Part shown: in pieces, positions 506 to 62,656 of the stretch
How the letters are laid out: every line of letters begins with the position of its first letter
Numbering within the stretch: position 1 is the first letter of the stretch
Source of the DNA: Halanaerobium congolense
GTDB lineage: Bacteria > Bacillota > Halanaerobiia > Halanaerobiales > Halanaerobiaceae
Assembly (NCBI RefSeq): GCF_004366375.1
Contig: NZ_SOEF01000001.1
Location: 1 to 64,000 of the forward strand
DNA length: 64,000 bases
Direction: 5' to 3'
Made by a program: the position numbers and the translations under genes
Notes under the pieces: generated by a model
What the model saw: only the letters and a program-made list of their open reading frames with translations
Databases searched by the model: none
What the model was told of the DNA's origin: nothing

Positions 506-2230
506 TTATCTAATTACGCTCCAGTCTAATCTGATAGGACCAGTTTTATCACTATTATAGCTATAGTTACCACCATGAACTCTTGTTAAATCTGCTATAC
601 CAGGATCTATACTTCCCCTTAGAGGATTATCTTCAGAGTAAGTTTTAACACTTGAAATATCCTGATCTGTATAATTTATTTCATTAAATATCATTGAAGA
701 AGCATAACCACCACTAAAATCATTACTTGTATAAGTTGCAAAAGGAGCAAAATATGCTAAATTAATATCAGATTCCCAAGGCATAGTAATATGACCATTT
801 TCAAACGAAACTGTCTCAGCAGTTGTATAAAAAATTATATTTGCATTTCCATCAAGAGAAAGATTTGCATAAGGACTTATTTCTCCATCAACTAAAATAT
901 GAAGTACATCATCTGCTTTTGAAAAATCCATACTTGCTGCTACATTAGGTGTCAAATCTCCATCAATGTAAATATAATTTCCATCATTGTAAAATTGGTT
1001 ATTGTCATCTATAAAAGCCTGACCTGCATTCATTTCTACCCAATAATCTCTCCAACCATTATAATCCTCTGAATCAGGTTCTAAATCAGGTTGTGGTTCA
1101 GGCTGAGGAATTTTATATATCGGTATTCCAAAAACAGTACGATAATTATCTTTAGCAACCTTATACACTTTACCATTATAATTAATTTTTGTACCAACAG
1201 AATAAGATTGATTACTCCAATTACTATAACTTCCCTGATCATCTTCATAAGTGTAGCCGCCTTCTTCATCTAATCTTCTCTTAAATTCTTCTACAATTTT
1301 TTCTTGATAATCATAATCTTTCGGATCAGGAAGTGATGTTTGATTATAATCAACCTTTCCCTTAGCAAGTCCTACTTTTGATATATCTGGATCATTTATT
1401 TCCCAATAATCATTATTAGGATTATCAGGATCCGGTTGTGTTTCATTATCATTAACTTTACTTGTATAAATTTCGTTATCATAAATCACTTTTTCTCGTG
1501 ATCTATAAATCTTATCATTATTCCATTCTTTAAAAGAATTATCAATCATCCAGTTATCCTGCCAGTTATCTTCTCCAGGTTCTACTGCTTCACCTGCAGA
1601 ATAATCACCTTTGCTGACATAAACCTTATTATCATGGACTACTAATTCTCCCTCAAAATAAGAGGAACTGTTAGACCATTTACTATATAAAACTTCAGCA
1701 GTTCCAAAACTGTGATCATCTACATTATAAAATCGATTATACCCATTGAGATTAATTTTATTTGCAAATCTAGAATATTTAAAATAATCAATTAAATGCT
1801 CAATTAAATATTCAACTCTAATAGTCTCACTTTCATTACCATTATCAGCTGTAATTTCATAGATATAAATATTATTTTCTTCATAATTAGAATGTGGATT
1901 AAATTCAATAGTAATACCATAACCCGCAATATTTAAATCATCTTCAAATTGGCTTTGCAATTTCTGCAGCTCTTTATAAATTTTTTCAGCTGAAAAAAAA
2001 CCTTTACCAGCAATATTATCTTGATAAAATTTATTTAACTTTAAATCAAGATAATTTGCTCCACCTTCAGCTGCATAAAATGCCTGACTGCGTGCAGCTG
2101 CATCCTGTACTAAACCTATATTTGAAGAATACATAAGCATCATAGCAGTAGCTAAACTTCCAACCAAAGCTAATAATAAAATAACCATTACTAAAGCTAT
2201 ACCGTCATTATTTTTAATATTTTTTTTCAT
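506..2230 (-). CDS. PilX-like minor pilin with three carbohydrate-binding-like modules
   Basis: The N-terminus has a class III-type signal region (GIALVMVILLLALVGSLA) followed by the AFYAAEGGANY motif near residue 51-60, typical of PilX-type minor pilins that sit at the pilus tip or prime assembly. Unusually, three segments (roughly residues 183-227, 235-276 and 335-397) repeat the pattern W-x(n)-G/Y-x-V-x-Y/H-x-x-K/E-x-Y-x-x-K followed by P-rich D/N and D-x-W. This resembles small CBM5/12 chitin/cellulose-binding modules. The rest is a beta-rich, Asn/Asp-rich secreted region. At about 574 residues it is far longer than ordinary PilX. I chose the ATG at 2230 because GGAGG lies 8 bases before it; an upstream GTG overlaps that site. 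It lies 5 bases after the preceding gene and is likely co-translated. Substrate binding is inferred. Confidence 0.75.
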   Translation of the reverse strand: MKKNIKNNDGIALVMVILLLALVGSLATAMMLMYSSNIGLVQDAAARSQAFYAAEGGANYLDLKLNKFYQDNIAGKGFFSAEKIYKELQKLQSQFEDDLNIAGYGITIEFNPHSNYEENNIYIYEITADNGNESETIRVEYLIEHLIDYFKYSRFANKINLNGYNRFYNVDDHSFGTAEVLYSKWSNSSSYFEGELVVHDNKVYVSKGDYSAGEAVEPGEDNWQDNWMIDNSFKEWNNDKIYRSREKVIYDNEIYTSKVNDNETQPDPDNPNNDYWEINDPDISKVGLAKGKVDYNQTSLPDPKDYDYQEKIVEEFKRRLDEEGGYTYEDDQGSYSNWSNQSYSVGTKINYNGKVYKVAKDNYRTVFGIPIYKIPQPEPQPDLEPDSEDYNGWRDYWVEMNAGQAFIDDNNQFYNDGNYIYIDGDLTPNVAASMDFSKADDVLHILVDGEISPYANLSLDGNANIIFYTTAETVSFENGHITMPWESDINLAYFAPFATYTSNDFSGGYASSMIFNEINYTDQDISSVKTYSEDNPLRGSIDPGIADLTRVHGGNYSYNSDKTGPIRLDWSVIR

Positions 2231-2235
2231 AATGA

Positions 2236-3009
2236 TCACCTCCAGAAACTAAAGTTACGAGGATATACAGTTTTTAATTCTTCAATAACATTACCATTTC
2301 CTAAATCTACTCTTATCTCAAATTCAAATGCATTGTTATTAAAATCAATTTCTATACCATCAACAATAATTTTTCTAACATTATCTCGATTTATTTTTGT
2401 GTTATCTTCCAATCTTATCTCATTACCTTCAATAAGCCTTATTTCGGTACCACCTGTAAAAGTTTTTTCTTTATTATTACCACTACTATCTACATATTTT
2501 ATTTTAATATCATCAGTGAATTTTATCTTGTCATCTTCAAAAACTATTGTGGTTCCATTTTTAAATTTGATTATACCAGTTCCATCTTTGTATCTTTTAT
2601 AAAGAATAATTTTCTCACCTGCATAATTTTTTAACTTAAATTCTACTAAATTGGTTAGAGCCCTTTCTTTATTTAAAGGTAGATTTTCAGCTACTTTCTT
2701 TTTTAATTCTAATTTATTAGTATTTTTTAGAATTACAAAATCTGCATTTTCAGCATCTTTATCAATTTCATCATACCAAAATTTCCAAGTATCAGGAGTA
2801 GTAAAATCAAAATATTTATATTCTCTAATATTCTGAGTAATATCTTCAATCATAATTTGGGTTAAACGATTATTACTAACCCGCTCTGTGCTATCTCTAA
2901 AAATATCAAATGACTGAACTAAAATAGCAGCCATCAAAGTCAGAACTATTAATAAGATTGTAAAGGTAATTAACACTTCAACTAAAGTAAACCCTCTATT
3001 ATTTTTCAT
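2236..3009 (-). CDS. PilW-like minor pilin / pseudopilin with prepilin leader
   Basis: It has a short basic leader followed by NNRGFTLVEVLITFTI, a canonical type III prepilin cleavage site (cut between G and F, Glu at +5) and a hydrophobic helix that packs in the pilus core. The remaining ~220 residues are a poorly conserved, Lys/Asp/Asn-rich head with several beta-strand repeats of the form KFKNGTTI/IVFEDDKI. Length (~257 residues) and position between a PilV-like and a PilX-like gene suggest the minor-pilin role of PilW, which with PilV and PilX primes assembly. An upstream in-frame GTG exists, but ATG 3009 gives the normal short leader. It starts 1 base after the previous stop, so it is translationally coupled. 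Confidence 0.75.
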   Translation of the reverse strand: MKNNRGFTLVEVLITFTILLIVLTLMAAILVQSFDIFRDSTERVSNNRLTQIMIEDITQNIREYKYFDFTTPDTWKFWYDEIDKDAENADFVILKNTNKLELKKKVAENLPLNKERALTNLVEFKLKNYAGEKIILYKRYKDGTGIIKFKNGTTIVFEDDKIKFTDDIKIKYVDSSGNNKEKTFTGGTEIRLIEGNEIRLEDNTKINRDNVRKIIVDGIEIDFNNNAFEFEIRVDLGNGNVIEELKTVYPRNFSFWR

Positions 3010-3010
3010 T

Positions 3011-3514
3011 TTAATCAGCACCCATCATTGTTTCGATTTCGTATGTCCCTTCCCCCTGCTCTTCCTCCCAAAAAATAGTTAATTTAATGTTATATAAATC
3101 TAAATCATCAGAAACTTCTGATTCAGAAATTTCTATTTCTGATTTTTCTAAATAATTAAATCTATTATTAGCTATATGATCATCAAAAATATCTGAAAGT
3201 TGTTGCTGTATTATAGAAGGCGAAACAGTATCTAAATCATCTTCTATAAAACTCCTTATATCACTTGAATAACTTCCACTGATTAGATCAACTCCATCTG
3301 AATTTATAATATTTTTCAGATTTTTAGAGTTAGCTAAATAATCAAGTATACTTGCAGACATTGAAGAAGCCAGATCTATATTTCTGGTAGTTCTTTCACT
3401 TCTAAATCCAACAAGAACAGCCCCAGCAAATGTTGTAATTAAGAGAATTATTATTGTAAAAGCTAATATAACTTCTACTAATGTAAATCCTTGATTATTT
3501 TTTAAAATCTTCAT
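3011..3514 (-). CDS. PilV-like minor pilin with prepilin leader
   Basis: The leader NNQGFTLVEVILAFTI is a canonical prepilin peptidase site with the conserved Glu at +5, followed by a ~20-residue hydrophobic helix. The soluble part is acidic (many Ser, Asp and Glu) and ends in EEEQGEGTYEIETMMGAD. At 167 residues it fits PilV/PulG-type minor pilins exported to the cell surface after leader removal and N-methylation. GAGAGGAG lies just upstream of the ATG. It sits 17 bases after pilD and is followed at once by the PilW-like gene, forming a minor-pilin set. The exact subfamily cannot be set by eye. Confidence 0.75.
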   Translation of the reverse strand: MKILKNNQGFTLVEVILAFTIIILLITTFAGAVLVGFRSERTTRNIDLASSMSASILDYLANSKNLKNIINSDGVDLISGSYSSDIRSFIEDDLDTVSPSIIQQQLSDIFDDHIANNRFNYLEKSEIEISESEVSDDLDLYNIKLTIFWEEEQGEGTYEIETMMGAD

Positions 3515-3531: not shown

Positions 3532-4275
3532 TTAAAAAATAAGTGATAAATACATAGCAAATAGTTCTTCTGAATAAAACCAAAGTATTAAAGAAGCCAC
3601 AGCCAAAAATGGTCCAAAAGGTAATTTAGTTTTCATACCAGTTTTTCCAGAAATAACACCAGGTAGATGGGCCATCAAAGCAATTAAAGCACCTAAAAAG
3701 ACTGCAGTTACAGCAATTACTGGCCCTGTAAAACTACCAACCATTGCCATCATTTTGATATCTCCTCCACCCATACCACCTTTACTTAAAAAAGCTATTA
3801 AAAATAGTAAACCTCCAGCTGCTAAAATACCCAATAAAGAATAAATAAAAGTTATATCAGTTCTAAAAAAGCTAAAACTTAATCCTGCTACAAGGCCACC
3901 AAGAGTTAATTGATCTGGAAGTATTTGATGATCAAAATCAATCATTGTCAGTACTATCATCAGCGACGAAAATACTAAACCTGCAGCTAATATGATTAAA
4001 TCAGATATATAAATATAATTTATAATAAATATAATTCCGGTTAACAATTCGATAATAGGATATCTGATTGAAATATCTGCTTTACAGTTTTTGCATTTCC
4101 CTCTTAAAAAGATATAACTTAAAACTGGAATTAGTTCCAGCGGGCTTAACTTATGTTCGCAGTCTGGACAGTGCGATGGTGGATAAATAATTGATTTCCC
4201 TGTCGGCAGTCTATAAATAACTACATTTAAAAAACTACCAATTACCAATCCTGTTATAAATAATAAAAATATCAT
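3532..4275 (-). CDS. pilD: Prepilin peptidase / N-methyltransferase
   Basis: This integral membrane aspartyl protease cleaves prepilin leaders and methylates the new N-terminal Phe. Visible hallmarks are the N-terminal zinc site made of two CxxC pairs (CPDC and CKNC), the first catalytic aspartate in MIDFDHQILPD, and the GGGDIKMMAMVG motif with the second. About eight hydrophobic segments and a length of 247 residues match full bifunctional PilD/ComC. GGAAGG lies 7 bases before the ATG. It lies inside the pilus operon between the second pilin and the minor pilins, so it probably processes all five pilin-like products here. Confidence 0.93.
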   Translation of the reverse strand: MIFLLFITGLVIGSFLNVVIYRLPTGKSIIYPPSHCPDCEHKLSPLELIPVLSYIFLRGKCKNCKADISIRYPIIELLTGIIFIINYIYISDLIILAAGLVFSSLMIVLTMIDFDHQILPDQLTLGGLVAGLSFSFFRTDITFIYSLLGILAAGGLLFLIAFLSKGGMGGGDIKMMAMVGSFTGPVIAVTAVFLGALIALMAHLPGVISGKTGMKTKLPFGPFLAVASLILWFYSEELFAMYLSLIF

Positions 4276-4309: not shown

Positions 4310-4747
4310 TTATTCTAAATTTAAATGACTGTTTAAACCTTCTTCTAAATCACCGTTAGATTTAATACCTACATATTCAGTTTCACTTTCACCTGGGAGT
4401 TTAACTGAAAAAACAAAACTATCACCATCACTGTTATAATGATATGGTTCATAACTTTCTATTCCTATTTCCTGAACTATACTATCTAATGCATTAAATT
4501 CATCTCTAAAATTAGTAATAAAAGTTGAAGTATTGGCAGCAGTAGGATATGTTCCTTCTTTAAATCTATATACTTCTATCTCTGTTAATAAGGTCCTGGT
4601 ATTAAAAATTACAGCTTCTCGTCGAGCTTCTTCTCTAATCCCCATTAAATTAGGCATGGCTATTGAAGCTAAAACTCCTATTATAACTATTACGATTAAT
4701 AATTCAATTAAAGTAAAACCACTATTACTAGTTATAACTTTAAACAT
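4310..4747 (-). CDS. Type IV pilin (second major-type pilin)
   Basis: A short leader ends in SNSGFTLIELLIVIVIIG, giving a G/F cleavage site, Glu at +5 and the long hydrophobic helix of type IVa pilins. The head domain (~110 residues) is soluble and contains YPTAANTSTF, a common pilin alpha-beta-loop sequence. It lacks a cysteine pair in the D-region. GGAGG lies upstream of the ATG. It is separated from the other major pilin at 6573-6968 by the O-antigen-ligase-like gene. The two share a near-identical first 30 mature residues but have different heads, so they may be alternative or co-assembled subunits. Which one is the main fibre subunit cannot be told. Confidence 0.85.
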   Translation of the reverse strand: MFKVITSNSGFTLIELLIVIVIIGVLASIAMPNLMGIREEARREAVIFNTRTLLTEIEVYRFKEGTYPTAANTSTFITNFRDEFNALDSIVQEIGIESYEPYHYNSDGDSFVFSVKLPGESETEYVGIKSNGDLEEGLNSHLNLE

Positions 4748-4766: not shown

Positions 4767-6518
4767 CTAATTTCCCTTTGCTAAAATCGTTAAAGAAATA
4801 CCTAAACCTAATATAATCCAGAAAACAGGAGCTACAGATATAACACTGTCATTAAAAAATCCTGCAACTAAATAAGCACTAACTGCTCCCAGCAGTGCAA
4901 TCCCCAATCTATTCTGCCAGCTGCTTAAATCACTATTATTATACAAAACAAATGACGAAAATATATAATTCCCCCATAAATACAATAAAACTAGTAGTGA
5001 AATAATACCTGTATTAATAGCTATCTGTAAATATAAATTGTGGGGTTTATCCACTATAATTTTAGGATTACTAAAAAATTTAAGTTTTCCGATTACATCA
5101 TCTTGGGGAAAATACATTGCATAAGTATCAGGACCGTGGCCAATGAAAATTGTATCTTTTAGTAATGGTAAAGTTCTTGACCAGATATAGGCTCTGGATG
5201 AACCTAATCTTTCATAACCCTTAAAGCCAATGCTTTCAACTTTCTTTAAAGGATATAAATTATTATGCATTCCTGCCATTAAAATCTGCCCATCCTGATA
5301 ATAAAACTGGGCACTCTTAGCACCATAATTCCAGATTAGATAATTTTCCTTTTCATTTATCTGAAAGCTGTGATGAAGATATTGTTTACCCTTAAAAATA
5401 ATTTCTTTAACTTCATCTTTTGAGTTGTAAACATTGAGCGGCTGTTTATTCAAAACTTTAATCTGATCTGAAGCCATTATTATCTCAAATTCTGCTTCAG
5501 CTGTTTTTAATTTCAATTTACCAGCTTCAGAACTCACTTCTGTTATTGGCGGCAAAATCTCCCCTTCTAGATATTTTTCCTGCTCAGTTTTGGGAAATAG
5601 AACATCACTAAAAATTTCATCCAGATTTCTAGCATTCATGGTAATAAAAACTAAAGTAAAAACAGTAAAAATAACAAAAATTCTTATCCAGTGTTTTTTT
5701 AAAAACTGCCGCTGCATATATAATATAATTACTGTTCCAGCGATAAAACCCATAAACCCAGCCCGGGAGCGAGACCCAATTAAAAATGCAAATAACAGTG
5801 TACTCAAAATACCTGATATAAATAATTTCTTTTTCTTTTGAGAACTGCTGTATAAACCAAGTGCTAATATTCCCACCATGGAAGCATAACTGCCCACATA
5901 ATTGGGATTATACATGGTTGAATAAATAATTCTTCTCCCAATAAAGCTCAGACGGTCTACAAAAAAATCCAGTCCATCAGGTGTAATTAATTTTCTACCA
6001 AATTCTGTTGTCAGTAAATCATAGTTATAAAACTGAAGTATACCGTGAATAGCTAAAATAAAAGCTGATATAAATAAAGCTTTTAAAATCAGTTTAAATG
6101 ATTTTTTATTGTCAACTATATTAACAGCCACTACCACCAGCAGTAAATATCCCAGTAAAACAAATATATTTTCATAGCGATCCGGAAAACCCTTAATCAC
6201 TATTTCTTTATATTCTGCCTTAAATGAAGACAAAACTACGAAAATACTGTAAACAGCTGCTGGAAGATAATAATTTGTCTTTTTGATTCCGTTTAAATCA
6301 ACATATTTAAGAAAAGTGATTAAAAGAAAAAATGAGGCAGTTAAGAAAAATATCATTTTATAATATGAATAAAAATCAAGATTAATGAAACTGCCCCAAA
6401 ATTGTGTTACTTTACCATCTAACATTACTAAATGACATCTTACTATATAAATAATTAAAGATGTAATAAATATAAAAAGAGCAAGATTAATAACTTTAAT
6501 TGTATTTTTTAAACTCAA
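4767..6518 (-). CDS. O-antigen ligase-like (Wzy/WaaL/PglL superfamily) membrane protein
   Basis: About 583 residues with some eleven hydrophobic segments and one large hydrophilic insert (around residues 295-425), the layout of O-antigen ligases, polymerases and protein O-oligosaccharyltransferases. C-terminal Wzy_C-like hallmarks are visible: an Arg-rich SSRAYIWSRTLPLL segment, IGHGPDTYAMYF, and DKPHNLYLQIAINTGI with the conserved His. These enzymes move lipid-linked glycans on the outer face of the inner membrane. Its place between two pilin genes mirrors TfpO/PilO next to pilA in Pseudomonas, so pilin glycosylation is a reasonable inference; capsule or envelope glycan transfer is the alternative. 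The start is TTG, chosen because GGAAAGGG lies about 9 bases upstream. Confidence 0.72.
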   Translation of the reverse strand: MSLKNTIKVINLALFIFITSLIIYIVRCHLVMLDGKVTQFWGSFINLDFYSYYKMIFFLTASFFLLITFLKYVDLNGIKKTNYYLPAAVYSIFVVLSSFKAEYKEIVIKGFPDRYENIFVLLGYLLLVVVAVNIVDNKKSFKLILKALFISAFILAIHGILQFYNYDLLTTEFGRKLITPDGLDFFVDRLSFIGRRIIYSTMYNPNYVGSYASMVGILALGLYSSSQKKKKLFISGILSTLLFAFLIGSRSRAGFMGFIAGTVIILYMQRQFLKKHWIRIFVIFTVFTLVFITMNARNLDEIFSDVLFPKTEQEKYLEGEILPPITEVSSEAGKLKLKTAEAEFEIIMASDQIKVLNKQPLNVYNSKDEVKEIIFKGKQYLHHSFQINEKENYLIWNYGAKSAQFYYQDGQILMAGMHNNLYPLKKVESIGFKGYERLGSSRAYIWSRTLPLLKDTIFIGHGPDTYAMYFPQDDVIGKLKFFSNPKIIVDKPHNLYLQIAINTGIISLLVLLYLWGNYIFSSFVLYNNSDLSSWQNRLGIALLGAVSAYLVAGFFNDSVISVAPVFWIILGLGISLTILAKGN

Positions 6519-6572: not shown

Positions 6573-6968
6573 TTATTCACCAGTAGTAATAGTTCCACCT
6601 GTTGTGATTTGACCTCCTGAACTTAGTGTATATGAAAAGTCACCATTATTTTCTTCTACTACAATGTTGTATCCATCATATGTGTTCTCACCATTATTAT
6701 TAACTGAAATACTATCCATATTATTTAACTCATTCCAACCATTATAATTTTCTAAACTGAAATTATCACCATTTGCCCTATGAGATTCAATTTCAACAGC
6801 TAAAGTTCTTAAATTTGCTCTAACAGCCTCTTCATTAGCACTATCTCCCAATCCAGCTATATTAGGTACAGCTATTGCCGCCAGCACACCGATAATAACA
6901 ATAACAATTAACAACTCAATTAAAGTAAAACCTTCATTTCTTTTTAAAATATCTCTTATTTTCTTCAT
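6573..6968 (-). CDS. pilA: Type IV major pilin
   Basis: A 131-residue prepilin with leader KRNEGFTLIELLIVIVIIGV: cleavage after Gly, mature Phe1, Glu5 and a classic hydrophobic alpha-helix. The short head is rich in Asn and Gly and ends in repeated GGQITTGGTITTGE, a low-complexity Thr/Gly tail that could be a glycan acceptor (inference). GAGGAGG sits close before the ATG. It follows pilC directly and precedes the O-antigen-ligase-like gene. First pilin position in the operon, strong ribosome site and small size suggest the main fibre subunit. Confidence 0.85.
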   Translation of the reverse strand: MKKIRDILKRNEGFTLIELLIVIVIIGVLAAIAVPNIAGLGDSANEEAVRANLRTLAVEIESHRANGDNFSLENYNGWNELNNMDSISVNNNGENTYDGYNIVVEENNGDFSYTLSSGGQITTGGTITTGE

Positions 6969-7052: not shown

Positions 7053-8297
7053 TTAGAAATTACTGTAAATACTGAACAGCGGCAAAATAACCGAAGCTAC
7101 AATTCCACCAACAATTACAGCTAAAACAATTATCATTACCGGCTCAATTAAAGAAATACTGCCTTCAATTGCATTTGCAACTTCCATGTCATAATAAGCG
7201 GATATTTTATTCAACATATCCTCTATATTACCACTTTCTTCACCAACTTTTAACATCTGGACTACCATTGGTGGAAATTCTCCGCTCTGACGAATTGGTT
7301 CCGAAAGTGTTGATCCCTCTCTAACTCTCATTCTGGTTTCTAATAAAACATCTGCAAAAACTTCATTATCTACAACTTCTTCAATAACAGGCAGTGCATT
7401 GATTATATTAACTCCACTTTTAATTAAAAGTGCCATAGTACTGGCAAATCTTGCTATTACAACTTTTCTAATCAAATCTCCTATAACAGGAATTTTCAAT
7501 AATAACTTATCCTTATTTAATTTACCTTTAGGAGTTTTAATATAAGTGCTCAGTAAAAATAACCCTGCTAATAAGACAATTAAGATTGCCCACCAGTAAG
7601 AAGAAATAATATTACTGACAAAAATTAATATTTTTGTTGGCAGAGGAATCTCCCCTCCAAAATTAACCAGCATCTTTAAAATATTTGGCAGAACAAAACC
7701 AATCAATATAAATACAGCTATAACAGCAACAATCACTATCACAATTGGATAATAAAGAGCAGATTTAACCTGCTTATTAGTTTTATCACGCTCACGATAA
7801 TACTCTACTAATTCAGATAATACTTCATCTAAAACACCACCGGTTTCCCCGGCTTTTATTAAATGAATAAATAATTTAGGAAAATATTTAGGATGTTCTT
7901 TTAAAGCAGAAGATAATGTCTCTCCGGCTTCAACTCTGGATAAGAGTTTTTCTAACATATTTTTTTCATGTTTAGAATTTGACTGCTTTTTAATTATGGT
8001 AATGGATCTGACAATGGGTATCCCGGCTGTGATTAAAACAGAAAGCCTCTGAGCAAAATTTGCAAGCTCCGAAATCTTATATCCACCACCAAAAATATTG
8101 AATTCAGATAAATTTATATCCCTTGTCAGCCTTGATTCTTTTCTTTCTCTATCACTTTCAACTGCTTTAATAGATACAGCATATAAATTTCTTTCTCTTA
8201 GCTGATTAGCGGCATCTTCTCTACTTGCTGCTTCTAAATTTCCATTTAAAACCTGTCCTGACTGTCCACGAGCCTTATAACTATAAAGTTGAGCCAT
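7053..8297 (-). CDS. pilC: Type IV pilus inner-membrane platform protein PilC
   Basis: 414 residues with two GspF domains (around 75-198 and 280-402), each with GETGG/GEESG-type motifs (KAGETGGVLDEVL and KVGEESGNIEDML), and three strong membrane segments. PilC is the polytopic protein on which PilB and PilT act to insert or remove pilin subunits. Length is typical. GGAGGTG lies 5 bases before the ATG. The order pilB-pilT-pilC-pilA is the conserved motor block. No unusual features. Confidence 0.95.
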   Translation of the reverse strand: MAQLYSYKARGQSGQVLNGNLEAASREDAANQLRERNLYAVSIKAVESDRERKESRLTRDINLSEFNIFGGGYKISELANFAQRLSVLITAGIPIVRSITIIKKQSNSKHEKNMLEKLLSRVEAGETLSSALKEHPKYFPKLFIHLIKAGETGGVLDEVLSELVEYYRERDKTNKQVKSALYYPIVIVIVAVIAVFILIGFVLPNILKMLVNFGGEIPLPTKILIFVSNIISSYWWAILIVLLAGLFLLSTYIKTPKGKLNKDKLLLKIPVIGDLIRKVVIARFASTMALLIKSGVNIINALPVIEEVVDNEVFADVLLETRMRVREGSTLSEPIRQSGEFPPMVVQMLKVGEESGNIEDMLNKISAYYDMEVANAIEGSISLIEPVMIIVLAVIVGGIVASVILPLFSIYSNF

Positions 8298-8327: not shown

Positions 8328-9395
8328 CTACCGCAGGTTTTCATTAACATATTTAATATCATTACAGTGATGTAAAACTGATTCCCTTGATATTTTTCCC
8401 CGCTTATATAATTTTAGAAGAGAATTATCCATTGTAGTCATATTATAGCGACCTCCAGTTTGGATTGCCGAATAAATCTGATTAGTTTTCCCTTCACGAA
8501 TAATATTTCTGATAGCCGATGTCGCCATCATTATTTCAAAAGCTGCAGCTCTTCCACTCTGATCTCTAGTTGGAATTAACTGCTGAGCTATTACAGCACT
8601 GATGACTGAAGCAAGCTGTATTTTTATTTGATCCTGCTGAGCCGCTGGAAAAACATCTATTATTCGATCTATGGTTGCTGGAGCACTGTTGGTGTGCAGA
8701 GTAGCCAGTACTAAATGTCCCGTTTCTGCTGCTTCTAAAGCAATCTGAATTGTCTCTAAATCTCTCATTTCTCCTACTAAAATTACATCAGGATCCTGTC
8801 TAAGACAGGCTCTTAATCCTCTCTTAAAATTATTAGTATCACTGCCAATTTCTCGCTGATGAACAAGGCTTTTATTATGTTTATGAAGATATTCTATTGG
8901 ATCTTCTAATGTCATAATATGCAGCTGTCGATTATGATTTATTTCATTAATTATTGCTGCCTGGGTTGTAGATTTACCACTTCCAGTTGGACCAGTGCTT
9001 AAAACAAGCCCCATTCGCTGATAGGCAAGCCTTTTAAATACATCCGGAAGATTCATGCTGTCAATTGTAGGTACCTCATTGGGAATTATTCTTAAAGCAA
9101 TTCCTACACTACCTCTTTGATGATAAGCATTAACTCTAAATCTAGATGTACCAGGAATTCTATATGAAAAATCAATTTCTCCTTTTTCCTTAAATTCTTT
9201 GTACTGTTTATCACTCATCATTTCTTTAGCTAAATTTTCAGTATCTTCAACACTTAATTCTTTATTATACTTATCATAGGGTCTAAGCTTCCCATTTTTC
9301 CTAATATAAGGGGGAGAAAATACTGTTAAATGAAGATCAGAAATCTGATCTTCCTGAGATACTATTTTTAATAGCTCTTCAAATTCCAAAAACAT
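8328..9395 (-). CDS. pilT: Pilus retraction ATPase PilT
   Basis: Hexameric cytoplasmic ATPase that drives pilus retraction and twitching. Visible are Walker A GPTGSGKST, the Asp box region LEDPIEYLH, Walker B VILVGEMRD, the His box HTNSAPATIDR, and the PilT signature AIRNIIREGKTNQ with downstream GRYNMTTMDNSLLKLY. The length of ~355 residues fits PilT. Start choice is not certain: ATG 9395 is only 4 bases from GGAG, and a TTG at 9389 would be better spaced. It follows pilB by 17 bases and precedes pilC. Presence of a dedicated PilT argues for dynamic, retractable pili. Confidence 0.95.
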   Translation of the reverse strand: MFLEFEELLKIVSQEDQISDLHLTVFSPPYIRKNGKLRPYDKYNKELSVEDTENLAKEMMSDKQYKEFKEKGEIDFSYRIPGTSRFRVNAYHQRGSVGIALRIIPNEVPTIDSMNLPDVFKRLAYQRMGLVLSTGPTGSGKSTTQAAIINEINHNRQLHIMTLEDPIEYLHKHNKSLVHQREIGSDTNNFKRGLRACLRQDPDVILVGEMRDLETIQIALEAAETGHLVLATLHTNSAPATIDRIIDVFPAAQQDQIKIQLASVISAVIAQQLIPTRDQSGRAAAFEIMMATSAIRNIIREGKTNQIYSAIQTGGRYNMTTMDNSLLKLYKRGKISRESVLHHCNDIKYVNENLR

Positions 9396-9412
9396 CACTC
9401 TCCAATCTATTG

Positions 9413-11113
9413 TTAATATATAATTCTTTCAACCTCAGAAACATCTGTTTCTCCTGCTTTAATTTTGGTAATTCCATCTTCTTTTAAAGTTATCATTCCA
9501 TTGTTTTTTGCATATTCACTTATTTTTTCTTTAGAAATATTATCACTTATCATTTCTTTTACCCTATTATCTACCTCAAAAATTTCCTGAATTGCTAAAC
9601 GTCCATTATAGCCAGTATTATTACACTTTTCACAACCGACTGCAAAATATGCTTCTTCAATTTCAGGATCTCCCAGGTATTTTAAATCAAGCTTATCCAA
9701 TTTTCTTTTTTCTTTACAATGAGGACAGAGCCTTCTAACAAGCCTCTGAGCTACTACACCATTTAAAGAAGCAGCTACAAGATATGGTGCTAACCCAATA
9801 TCAACCAATCTAGTAATTGAACTAACGGCATCGTTTGTATGGAGAGTACTAAAAACGAGATGCCCAGTTAAAGCAGATCGGACAGCTATTTCTGCAGTTT
9901 CTTCATCTCGCATTTCTCCAATCATTATTATATCTGGATCCTGTCTTAAAATTGACCTAAGTGTTTTAGCAAAAGTTAATCCTGCCTTTACCTTAGCCTG
10001 AACCTGATTAATACCAGAAATTTGATATTCAACTGGATCTTCAATTGTAACGATATTTATTTTAGGGCTATTAAGTTCATTTAAAGCTGCAAAAAGAGTT
10101 GTTGACTTTCCACTCCCAGTTGGTCCAGTTAGTAATAGAACACCATTCGGTTTTTTGATTAAATTTCCAAATTTAACTCTATTATAATCTGATAAGCCTA
10201 AATTATCTAAATCTAGAAGGTTCGTATTTCTTGCTAAAAGACGAATAACTACCTTTTCCCCTTTAATTGTTGGTAAAGTAGAAACACGCATATCCAGATT
10301 TTCTCCTTTAAAAATCATCTTTATTCGGCCATCCTGGGGTACTCGATGTTCGGTAATATCTAGATTAGCAATAATCTTAATTCTGGAAACTAAAGCTCTA
10401 TGAGAAGATTTTGGTGCTGTCATTTCCTTTTTTAAAACACCATCAATTCTGAATCGAACTCTAATATTATTTTCTTCAGGCTCAATATGAATATCACTTG
10501 CACCTTTTTGATAAGCTTTAGAAATAACATAATTTGCCAATTTTATTATTGGTGCTTCATCAACCATTTCTCTGAGCTCTGCCTCTTCATATATCTCTTC
10601 ATTTTGGTTGTCAGATACATCTTCTACATCATCTAAATTAAAATCTTCGAAAATATTGGAAATGTCTATATCTTCACTACCATACAGCCTATTTATAGCT
10701 GAACGAATTTGATTAGGAGCACCATAAAGTGGTTCAATAGTTAAATTGCTTAACATTTCTAAATCATCTATAGCTACCAGATCTGTTGGATCTGCCATTA
10801 CAACCTTTAATTTGCTTTCTCCTTTTTTTTCAATAGGAACCGCTAAATATCTTCGTGCCATATTTTCAGGAATTAATTCTGATAGAGAAGGATCAAAAAA
10901 ATATTTATCCAAATCTGCGTGTGGAATTCCTCTTTGAAATTCCAAAACTTCTATTAAATCTTCTTCCCGAATATACCCTAATTCAACTAAAACTTCTCCA
11001 ATTTTTTTGTCAGTGTTCTTCATCTTTTCTAAAGCTAGATCTAACTGTTCTCTATTTATATATTCATGGTCTAATAAAAGTTCTCCTATTTTTTTGCGGT
11101 TTCCGAAAGCCAA
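9413..11113 (-). CDS. pilB: Pilus extension ATPase PilB
   Basis: GspE/PilB-type assembly ATPase. The first ~150 residues form an MshEN-like N-terminal domain (KKIGELLLDHEYI, then KKIGEVLVELGYI, two tandem half-repeats), a fold that binds c-di-GMP in MshE. Then come Walker A GPTGSGKST (about residues 331-339), IEDPVEY, Walker B IIMIGEMRD and a C-terminal four-cysteine zinc site (CPHC, CEKC). I start at TTG 11113 because GGGGTG lies 7 bases upstream; the longer TTG at 11128 has no ribosome site. About 566 residues, normal for PilB. It is the first gene after the riboswitch, so c-di-GMP may act both on its RNA and on the protein (second part inferred). Confidence 0.94.
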   Translation of the reverse strand: MAFGNRKKIGELLLDHEYINREQLDLALEKMKNTDKKIGEVLVELGYIREEDLIEVLEFQRGIPHADLDKYFFDPSLSELIPENMARRYLAVPIEKKGESKLKVVMADPTDLVAIDDLEMLSNLTIEPLYGAPNQIRSAINRLYGSEDIDISNIFEDFNLDDVEDVSDNQNEEIYEEAELREMVDEAPIIKLANYVISKAYQKGASDIHIEPEENNIRVRFRIDGVLKKEMTAPKSSHRALVSRIKIIANLDITEHRVPQDGRIKMIFKGENLDMRVSTLPTIKGEKVVIRLLARNTNLLDLDNLGLSDYNRVKFGNLIKKPNGVLLLTGPTGSGKSTTLFAALNELNSPKINIVTIEDPVEYQISGINQVQAKVKAGLTFAKTLRSILRQDPDIIMIGEMRDEETAEIAVRSALTGHLVFSTLHTNDAVSSITRLVDIGLAPYLVAASLNGVVAQRLVRRLCPHCKEKRKLDKLDLKYLGDPEIEEAYFAVGCEKCNNTGYNGRLAIQEIFEVDNRVKEMISDNISKEKISEYAKNNGMITLKEDGITKIKAGETDVSEVERIIY

Positions 11114-11259
11114 ATTATCACCCCACAATAAAATTTTTTATCGATTTTTGAAATAATTTGTAAATTATTTTGCTATTATAACAAAATTCGACAGAATATT
11201 AATTTTTCCTGCACTTTTCTAATTTAATTTTAATCTTTTTGATAATTTAAGTTTATAAA

Positions 11260-11301
11260 GCAAAAAATTGCCATTAGTATATTCACTTTGGCAATTTTTT
11301 A
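11260..11301 (-). terminator. Intrinsic terminator between riboswitch and pilB
   Basis: Read on the minus strand, AAAAATTGCCA pairs with TGGCAATTTTTT across a 14-16 base loop, followed by a T run. It starts right after the riboswitch aptamer and well before pilB, so it is the likely expression platform of the switch. Confidence 0.8.
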
Positions 11302-11302
11302 C

Positions 11303-11392
11303 ACCTGAGGCAAACATAACAATCATAGGAATCATCCCTTAGACTTATGTTTTTGCGTCACAGCCTTTAAACTGCTTTGCTTTTAGTATTTA
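11303..11392 (-). promoter_or_regulatory. Class I cyclic-di-GMP riboswitch (GEMM-I) for the pilus operon
   Basis: The minus strand reads AAAGCAAAGC, a small stem-loop, then GTGACGCAAAAAC, then GTCTAAGG ... CCTATGATTG and a closing TTTGCC. This matches the GEMM-I layout: GCAAA-C, P2 hairpin, GACGCAAA, CUAA, second hairpin, AUGGUAGC-like segment and closing GCC. An intrinsic terminator follows directly, then pilB. The order implies that c-di-GMP controls readthrough into the pilus operon. Whether the ligand turns it on or off cannot be read by eye. Confidence 0.82.
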
Positions 11393-11467
11393 ATTTATAA
11401 TTCCCTCACTTTAATTTAATTATAAAATATTTTTTTATAAAAATATATTACCCAAAAGAGTAATTTT

Positions 11468-35487: not shown

Positions 35488-35730
35488 TACAAAAAATCCC
35501 GCCCTAAAGGGACGAGATACCGTGTTACCACCCTGATTATCCCACAAAGATTGTGGAATCACTTTTATTTGTTAACGAAAGCATTTACTTCCGGACAAGC
35601 CTACTGATTTCAGCTCTCAGCTCCAGAGCGAACTTCACTAAATTCAATATTTTAACTGCTTTCAGCTGCTGCAGTTAATCTCTCTTAAAATCTTATTTAG
35701 TTACTTTCTCCTTCTCTGCCTTTAAATATT
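35488..35730 (-). promoter_or_regulatory. T-box leader of pheST
   Basis: On the minus strand, AGGGTGGTAACACGG (around 35518-35533) is the T-box antiterminator motif. It is followed by a hairpin CGTCCC-TTTA-GGGCGGG with T6 (35490-35516). A stem I-like region with AGAGAAGGAG lies further upstream. Uncharged tRNA-Phe would favour readthrough into pheS. I did not assign the specifier codon securely. Confidence 0.9.
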
Positions 35731-43068: not shown

Positions 43069-43325
43069 AAAAAAATCCCTCATCTCAGATTAGAGACGAC
43101 GGATTCGCGGTTCCACTCTAGTTAACAATAATTAAAAACTAATAAATTATTAAGCAGCTTAAATTATTATTCACTTAATAAGATAACGGTTTAACCGGAC
43201 AGAAATACTTGCTTCTTTCTGTCAGCTCCAGGGTGGTTTTCAAATTAATGATCAGTTATGTGCTTTCAGCCGTCGGCACAATTCTCTTTTAACTGCCAAA
43301 TAAATTTACTCTTCCCTATCAAAGC
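43069..43325 (-). promoter_or_regulatory. T-box leader of thrS
   Basis: Minus strand AGAGTGGAACCGCG at 43106-43119 is a near-consensus T-box. It is followed by a long hairpin (ATCCGTCGTCTC / GAGATGAGGGAT) with a T7 tail at about 43069-43105, and preceded by ~200 bases of stem I-type sequence. The leader ends about 60 bases before the thrS start. Confidence 0.92.
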
Positions 43326-43402
43326 TTTTATGATCTTTATTTTTTATTATTATATTCCTAATTGCTATAAAAGTCAAATATTTTCTTTAAGATTTTTGAC
43401 AT

Positions 43403-62482: not shown

Positions 62483-62494
62483 TAAATAATTTAA

Positions 62495-62606
62495 TCTTCT
62501 TTATTCCGGACTTTACCGTCGGTACTGGAATTTCACCAGTTCAGCTCAAGCTCGTGGACTATACCACCGGTTAGGATTTGCTAAAAGCTCACCATACCCT
62601 GAAGAT
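62495..62606 (-). promoter_or_regulatory. FMN riboswitch (RFN element) for ribU
   Basis: The minus strand carries the conserved RFN pieces in order: TCTTCAGGG at the 5' end, ACCGGTGGTATAGTCCACGAGC, CTGGTGAAATTCCAG, ACCGACGGTAAAGTCCGG and the closing AAGAAGA. A terminator and a RibU-like gene follow. Confidence 0.95.
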
Positions 62607-62656
62607 AATATTTTATTGATATTTTAATTATAAGGAATAACTGCTGTAAAAGCAAA

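Follow-up and report, generated by a model that had tools for sequence, protein, structure and literature searches.

A GEMM-I riboswitch and terminator with adenine at the selectivity position upstream of the pilB operon of Halanaerobium congolense

Control of type IV pili by a GEMM-I riboswitch has a known precedent in the pilM leader of Geobacter metallireducens, a GEMM-Ib RNA that responds to cGAMP and acts as an ON switch. The leader described here, which precedes the pilB operon of Halanaerobium congolense, shares with pilM the GEMM-I fold, an adenine at position 20 (A20, Vc2 numbering), a terminator, and type IV pilus genes downstream (PMC9262584). In Geobacter, A20 marks the cGAMP-selective GEMM-Ib RNAs; the pgcA switch prefers cGAMP by approximately 1200-fold, and the A20G change converts the Gmet_0970 switch from cGAMP- to c-di-GMP-selective (PMC6456294). 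This base is considered to bias selectivity without acting as a strict filter. The Cd1 aptamer retains c-di-GMP binding when A or C is put at its position 20, and a protonated adenine allows cGAMP riboswitches to bind c-di-GMP as well (PMC9262584).

Two riboswitches of Clostridioides difficile are also closely related to the present case. Cd1, located before flgB, is a class I OFF switch for c-di-GMP that, like the Halanaerobium RNA, is without a stable P1 stem and is followed by a separate and complete terminator (PMC9262584, PMC6366702). Cd1 differs in that it carries G20, has a defined antiterminator, and serves flagella rather than pili. The functional class I switches of C. difficile are all OFF switches, and class I ON switches exist in other bacteria (PMC6366702). 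The second, Cdi-2-4, is a class II ON switch for c-di-GMP before pilA1 and is likewise a terminator-type dinucleotide riboswitch at pilus genes, also from a Bacillota relative (PMC6366702). However, its aptamer class is unrelated, and it stands before the major pilin gene and not before pilB. The earlier note on this DNA, made from the sequence alone, was therefore correct in setting the locus apart from the class II control of pilA1.

The window, by which we mean the whole stretch of 64,000 nucleotides that was analyzed (contig NZ_SOEF01000001.1, positions 1 to 64,000), carries the aptamer on its minus strand. The earlier note had proposed a class I c-di-GMP riboswitch upstream of pilB and had called for an Infernal search with RF01051. 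That search, made with Rfam 15, returned a significant match to RF01051 (c-di-GMP-I, class I, GEMM-I) at 11391-11306, with a score of 55.7 bits against a gathering threshold of 35 bits, an E-value of 3.6e-08 by cmscan of the whole window, and an E-value of 4.5e-10 in a local search. The model is covered end to end (positions 1-87 of 87), and in the cmscan against Rfam 15 the next best families at this site scored at chance level. The assigned class thus stands, but c-di-GMP is only its probable ligand, given an A20 like that of the Geobacter GEMM-Ib RNAs. On the same strand, two T-box leaders and an FMN riboswitch also score above gathering (43089-43331, 35505-35725, and 62490-62610).

Stems P2 and P3 of the aptamer are complete, and P1 is weak or absent; a P1 formed by 5′ UGAGG pairing with CCUCA was rejected, as this pairing is present in some genomes only. 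The conserved A47 is found within GACGCAAA, and the cytidine at 11310 (RF01051 model position 83) is equivalent to C92, the Watson-Crick partner of the ligand guanine (PMC9049102, PMC9262584). This residue is conserved, with an exception in one relative (G022), where the Rfam alignment places a U. Further upstream, a TATAAT at 11419..11424 on the minus strand is, as read from the sequence, a likely -10 element of a promoter upstream of the aptamer. It has no good -35 hexamer at 16-18 nt and was not among the sites reported by a promoter scan at 9/12, and several relatives also have a TATAAT upstream of the aptamer.

The intrinsic terminator that the earlier note had placed behind the aptamer is present at 11262..11300 on the minus strand. 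Its stem is a perfect 12-bp helix of AAAAAATTGCCA (11300-11289) with TGGCAATTTTTT (11273-11262), enclosing a loop of 15 nt and ending in U6, with a predicted hairpin energy near -12 kcal/mol and a gap of 10-11 nt from the aptamer core. An automatic terminator scan did not report the hairpin at 11300-11262 because its loop falls outside the 3-8 nt range of that scan. The stem core ATTGCC/TGGCAATTTTT is identical in all nine pilB leaders compared.

These nine leaders come from nine Halanaerobium-family genomes, including that of the window, in which the aptamer, terminator, and pilB form a unit; RF01051 itself is carried by 34 of the 38 genomes of the order. The aroE gene was detected just upstream of the leader in eight of the nine and appears to have its own terminator-like hairpin. 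Within the aptamer, both partners of seven P2 and P3 base pairs have changed in one or more of the nine genomes, which constitutes compensatory change, and the ACGCAAA strand is invariant. The linker CUCAGGU is nearly invariant as well. The identity of PilB among these genomes falls to as low as 54%, and therefore the leader has been kept by selection rather than through recent common descent. This comparison confirms that the riboswitch and its terminator are genuine.

Because it brings a 5′ arm of its own, the terminator is compatible with a folded aptamer, whereas the terminator and aptamer of the pilM switch are mutually exclusive (PMC9262584). Because a terminator of this kind can coexist with a folded aptamer, as in Cd1, we lean by analogy toward a switch that the ligand would turn OFF, and give this direction about an even chance. 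An ON response is possible but would be less expected, and a leader without any ligand response seems unlikely. Among the pilB leaders, no antiterminator was found that beats shuffled sequence. Pairing of the aptamer 3′ strand UUUGCC with the terminator 3′ arm GGCAA is broken in two relatives (G014 and G022) and is not conserved, and pairing of CUCAGGU with UUGCC(AGUG) gave energies equal to or worse than those of shuffles, with G014 as the exception. For a third candidate, in which the GCAAA of the aptamer 5′ strand would pair with the UUGCC of the terminator 5′ arm, inspection by eye indicated that A20 costs one pair and is not compensated. Because no antiterminator beats shuffles, the coupling between aptamer and terminator is left without an explanation.

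A feature of this leader that was absent from the earlier note is the base equivalent to G20 of Vc2, which reads one of the ligand purines. In the window this base, at 11381 on the minus strand (RF01051 model position 11, in J1/2), is an A where the consensus is G; the leader thus lacks the G of c-di-GMP-selective class I RNAs and has the A of GEMM-Ib cGAMP riboswitches. Of 95 aptamers that were read out, the nine before pilB have eight A, one C, and no G, aptamers elsewhere in the family 36 G and 13 A, and those from other families of the order 37 G. At position 20, Fisher's test gives a p of 5e-5, a value uncorrected for shared ancestry. The window's genome has two GEMM-I aptamers, one with G20 before flgB and the other with A20 before pilB. 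We also considered A20 as a rare, Geobacter-like signature and rejected this idea, as a strict A20 pattern gives aptamer-like matches in many phyla. Among 398 Bacillota genomes, this pattern occurs in 25 (at some sites that are not aptamers) versus 174 for G20.

Some loci appear to be locked at position 20, and others, including flgB, flip between close relatives. The flgB leaders (loci L001, L050, L058, L061, L067-L069, L081, L084, L088, and L097) carry a GEMM-I aptamer with G20 in five genomes and with A20 in four, the genomes being G011, G013, G014, G015, G017, G018, G019, G022, and that of the window. In Halanaerobium relatives, GEMM-I aptamers, some of them in tandem, lie a few bases before the Shine-Dalgarno sequences of genes for small secreted proteins (L053, L055, L064, L072, L074, L076, L083, L089, L090, and L096), and all listed members have G20. 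Another locus has A20 in three of three members. An A20 aptamer before a gene for a GGDEF-domain protein (L049, G010:C1:314539-314628) suggests feedback on dinucleotide synthesis. The sole pilB leader with C20 (L071, G015:C20:38943-39027) would be informative with regard to its ligand behavior.

A20 confers a strong preference for cGAMP in the one natural context in which it has been tested, that of Geobacter, and this observation counts against c-di-GMP as the ligand (PMC6456294). Other features point in the opposite direction. The P2 pair that adjoins the junction is G-C in the window's aptamer, as in Vc2, whereas P2 closes with C-G in the pilM switch and the lower closing pair of the solved cGAMP aptamer is C15-G40 (PMC6274999), although a C-G pair at this place may not be common to all GEMM-Ib RNAs. 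Geobacter metallireducens uses cGAMP, whereas no cGAMP synthase was found in Halanaerobium. GGDEF domains were examined in the window's genome (G000, 15 matches) and in two complete relatives (G010 and G013, 48 matches). None of the intact domains in these three genomes has the Hypr serine at the base-reading site, and this includes G013, even though all of its aptamers are A20. Intact sites have Asp at this position, with one exception (L013) that has Asn and has also lost a metal-binding Asp, and Ser or Thr occurs in degenerate copies only. A strict Hypr DNA pattern, which would miss approximately one-fifth of GGDEF domains, had no match in the remaining genomes of the family. Searches for AGS_C domains in the window's genome and for SMODS domains in 14 genomes of the family also found none.

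Neither a Hypr GGDEF protein nor a CD-NTase was thus found among the genomes read, with some chance left that another enzyme makes cGAMP. Because no cGAMP maker was found, with canonical Asp in intact GGDEF sites and no CD-NTase domain, c-di-GMP is the likelier ligand of the pilB switch, perhaps read at a different affinity.

The placement of the switch before a type IV pilus operon, as the earlier note had described, is upheld by Pfam matches to a series of minus-strand genes. These begin with pilB at 9413..11113 (PF00437, 460 bits; PF05157, 71.7 bits), whose likely start is the TTG at 11113-11111 behind GGGGTG. The longest open reading frame opens at 11128, and the PilB ortholog of G022 begins at the same TTG position as 11113. 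There follow a pilT-like retraction ATPase at 8328..9398 (PF00437, 167.5 bits), the platform protein gene pilC at 7053..8297 (PF00482, 203.6 bits), a type IV pilin at 6573..6968 (PF07963, 36.5 bits), a second type IV pilin at 4310..4747 (PF07963, 32.7 bits), the prepilin peptidase gene pilD at 3532..4275 (PF06750, 125.9 bits; PF01478, 64.2 bits), and two minor pilins at 3011-3514 and 2236-3021 (PF07963, 24.6 and 34 bits). Between the two pilin genes sits a membrane protein of the O-antigen ligase/Wzy_C type at 4767..6518 (PF04932, 47 bits), which might serve as a ligase for pilin glycosylation in this lineage of diderm Bacillota. The 577-residue product of 506..2239, encoded where the minor pilin genes end, combines a pilin-like N-terminus, as judged by eye, with a CBM5/12-like module (PF02839, 28.4 bits) and could be a tip adhesin for polysaccharide. 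A pilM-like gene, identified by reading, comes after it at 489-70.

The MshEN-like N-terminus that had been proposed for PilB is also supported. PF05157 matches residues 67-153 with 71.7 bits, and upstream of that match are two 24-residue motifs, KIGELLLDHEYINREQLDLALEKM and KIGEVLVELGYIREEDLIEVLEFQ, which lie five residues apart and both start with KIG. The MshEN (GSPII) domains of MshE and Thermus PilF share with this PilB N-terminus the layout of two 24-residue motifs five residues apart (PMC11731258). The window's PilB conforms to the two-copy pattern ((R/K/L)LGxx(LVI)(LVI)xxG..., five residues apart), with some positions that deviate. Its Lys at motif position 1 fits an extended consensus that admits Lys in place of Arg (PMC11731258), whereas position 2 is Ile rather than the consensus Leu, and motif I carries E, Y, and M at positions 10, 11, and 24. 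The complete motif pair is found in seven of the nine PilB orthologs, and the strict pattern detects one copy in G011 and none in G014. On these grounds, control by c-di-GMP at two levels, through the riboswitch and through the MshEN region of PilB, is plausible.

The earlier note also held that the whole operon follows the switch, and this part requires qualification, as exclusive control is weakened by promoter-like sites between the terminator and pilB. For sigma-H we used the B. subtilis consensus RNAGGAWWW-N11/12-RNNGAAT, and the site GCAGGAAAA-N11-GTCGAAT at 11186..11212 on the minus strand is scored as a full match to it (13/13). The window has three such matches versus 0.46 expected, the genome has 49 versus 10 for a reversed control, and most of the sites examined stand shortly upstream of an open reading frame. 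A site at the same place with 12-13 of 13 positions matched occurs in eight of the nine pilB leaders, G018 being without it, and the window's genome encodes SigH (336.7 bits, above the curated cut-off). Judged by sequence, the pilB leader therefore has both a sigma-H-type motif upstream of the start and the cognate factor in the genome. A second candidate, a TATAAT with an extended -10 TG (TGTTATAAT) at 11175..11180 on the minus strand (10/12 with the TG), is a possible sigma-A promoter; such sites are not more numerous than in shuffles, and this one is not conserved in most relatives. In non-sporulating Bacillota, sigma-H is known to activate competence pilus genes (PMC3364868).

Because one or more promoters are predicted between the terminator and pilB, the operon would not depend wholly on terminator read-through, and it can probably bypass the riboswitch. 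A transcription start between the hairpin and pilB is what the earlier note had named as evidence against its proposal, and the sigma-H-type site provides such a start in predicted form only. Elsewhere in the window's genome, sigma-H-type sites stand before genes that were identified by eye as those for ferritin, Hfq, rubrerythrin, and a ribosome hibernation factor (L298, L304, L307, and L319). A second sigma-H-like gene (C9:62146-62733, 208 bits) is close to the site of the ribosome hibernation factor.

We favor, with a probability of roughly 0.6, a reading that joins these elements. A GEMM-I riboswitch and its terminator would attenuate the growth-phase transcript of the pilB-pilT-pilC-pilin-pilD operon, most likely in response to c-di-GMP in vivo, with A (or C) in place of G as the selectivity base of the aptamer. 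Such a base would relax selectivity and probably shift affinity, so that the threshold for pili would differ from that of switches with G20, of which the flagellar switch of this genome is one. The sigma-H-type promoter may allow transcription independent of the riboswitch during starvation or in stationary phase, and the MshEN motifs of PilB could add a post-translational input from c-di-GMP.

One challenge to this reading comes from A20 itself. Present in eight of the nine pilB leaders, this base sets selectivity in the Geobacter GEMM-Ib RNAs, which also occur at pilus and surface genes (PMC6456294, PMC9262584), and researchers anticipate that further bacteria will prove to have cGAMP riboswitches (PMC8835794). 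Perhaps, then, the leader belongs to the GEMM-Ib type and selects cGAMP, which Halanaerobium would produce by an enzyme outside the Hypr and CD-NTase signatures. We consider this improbable, given that intact GGDEF domains of three genomes are without the Hypr serine, no SMODS or AGS_C domain was found, the lower P2 resembles that of c-di-GMP switches, one ortholog has C20, and G and A flip between close relatives at the same flagellar and other loci. A related idea, which we regard as slightly less probable, is that position 20 is an evolvable dial by which one genome sorts its GEMM-I switches between c-di-GMP and cGAMP from an unrecognized enzyme; A20 would then be fixed at the pilus operon, with G or A at other loci.

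The occurrence of both A and C at position 20 could alternatively mean that the aptamer is a relic, relaxed at this base in an AT-rich genome, with the terminator serving mainly to shield pilB from transcription that enters from upstream and the sigma-H promoter driving the operon. The weak P1, the lack of a supported antiterminator, the well-conserved sigma-H-type site downstream, and the apparent terminator-like hairpin of aroE upstream all fit such a history. However, A47, C92, the GCAAA and ACGCAAA strands, P2, and P3 are kept, with compensation, down to 54% PilB identity, and the linker CUCAGGU is nearly invariant. Because a relic would not keep these aptamer features and the linker, we find this explanation unlikely. 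The simplest proposal, that of the earlier note, is a plain class I c-di-GMP switch in which A20 is of no consequence and on which the operon depends wholly. It agrees with the RF01051 match, with the many GGDEF genes in the genome, and with the c-di-GMP binding of Cd1 position-20 mutants (PMC9262584), but pilB leaders retain a base other than G in genomes whose other loci have G, and a second promoter is predicted. It is the reading to which we give the least weight.

A question for the field is whether cGAMP riboswitches occur beyond Geobacter and related bacteria. A natural series for this purpose is provided by Halanaerobium, with orthologous leaders that differ at the selectivity base in genomes without a recognizable cGAMP synthase. 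If c-di-GMP is the ligand of its A20 aptamers, cGAMP signaling cannot safely be told from A20 alone; if cGAMP is, then a synthase that has escaped recognition exists. Moreover, if the predicted sigma-H bypass is real, the pilus genes of these organisms would respond to starvation as well as to a dinucleotide.
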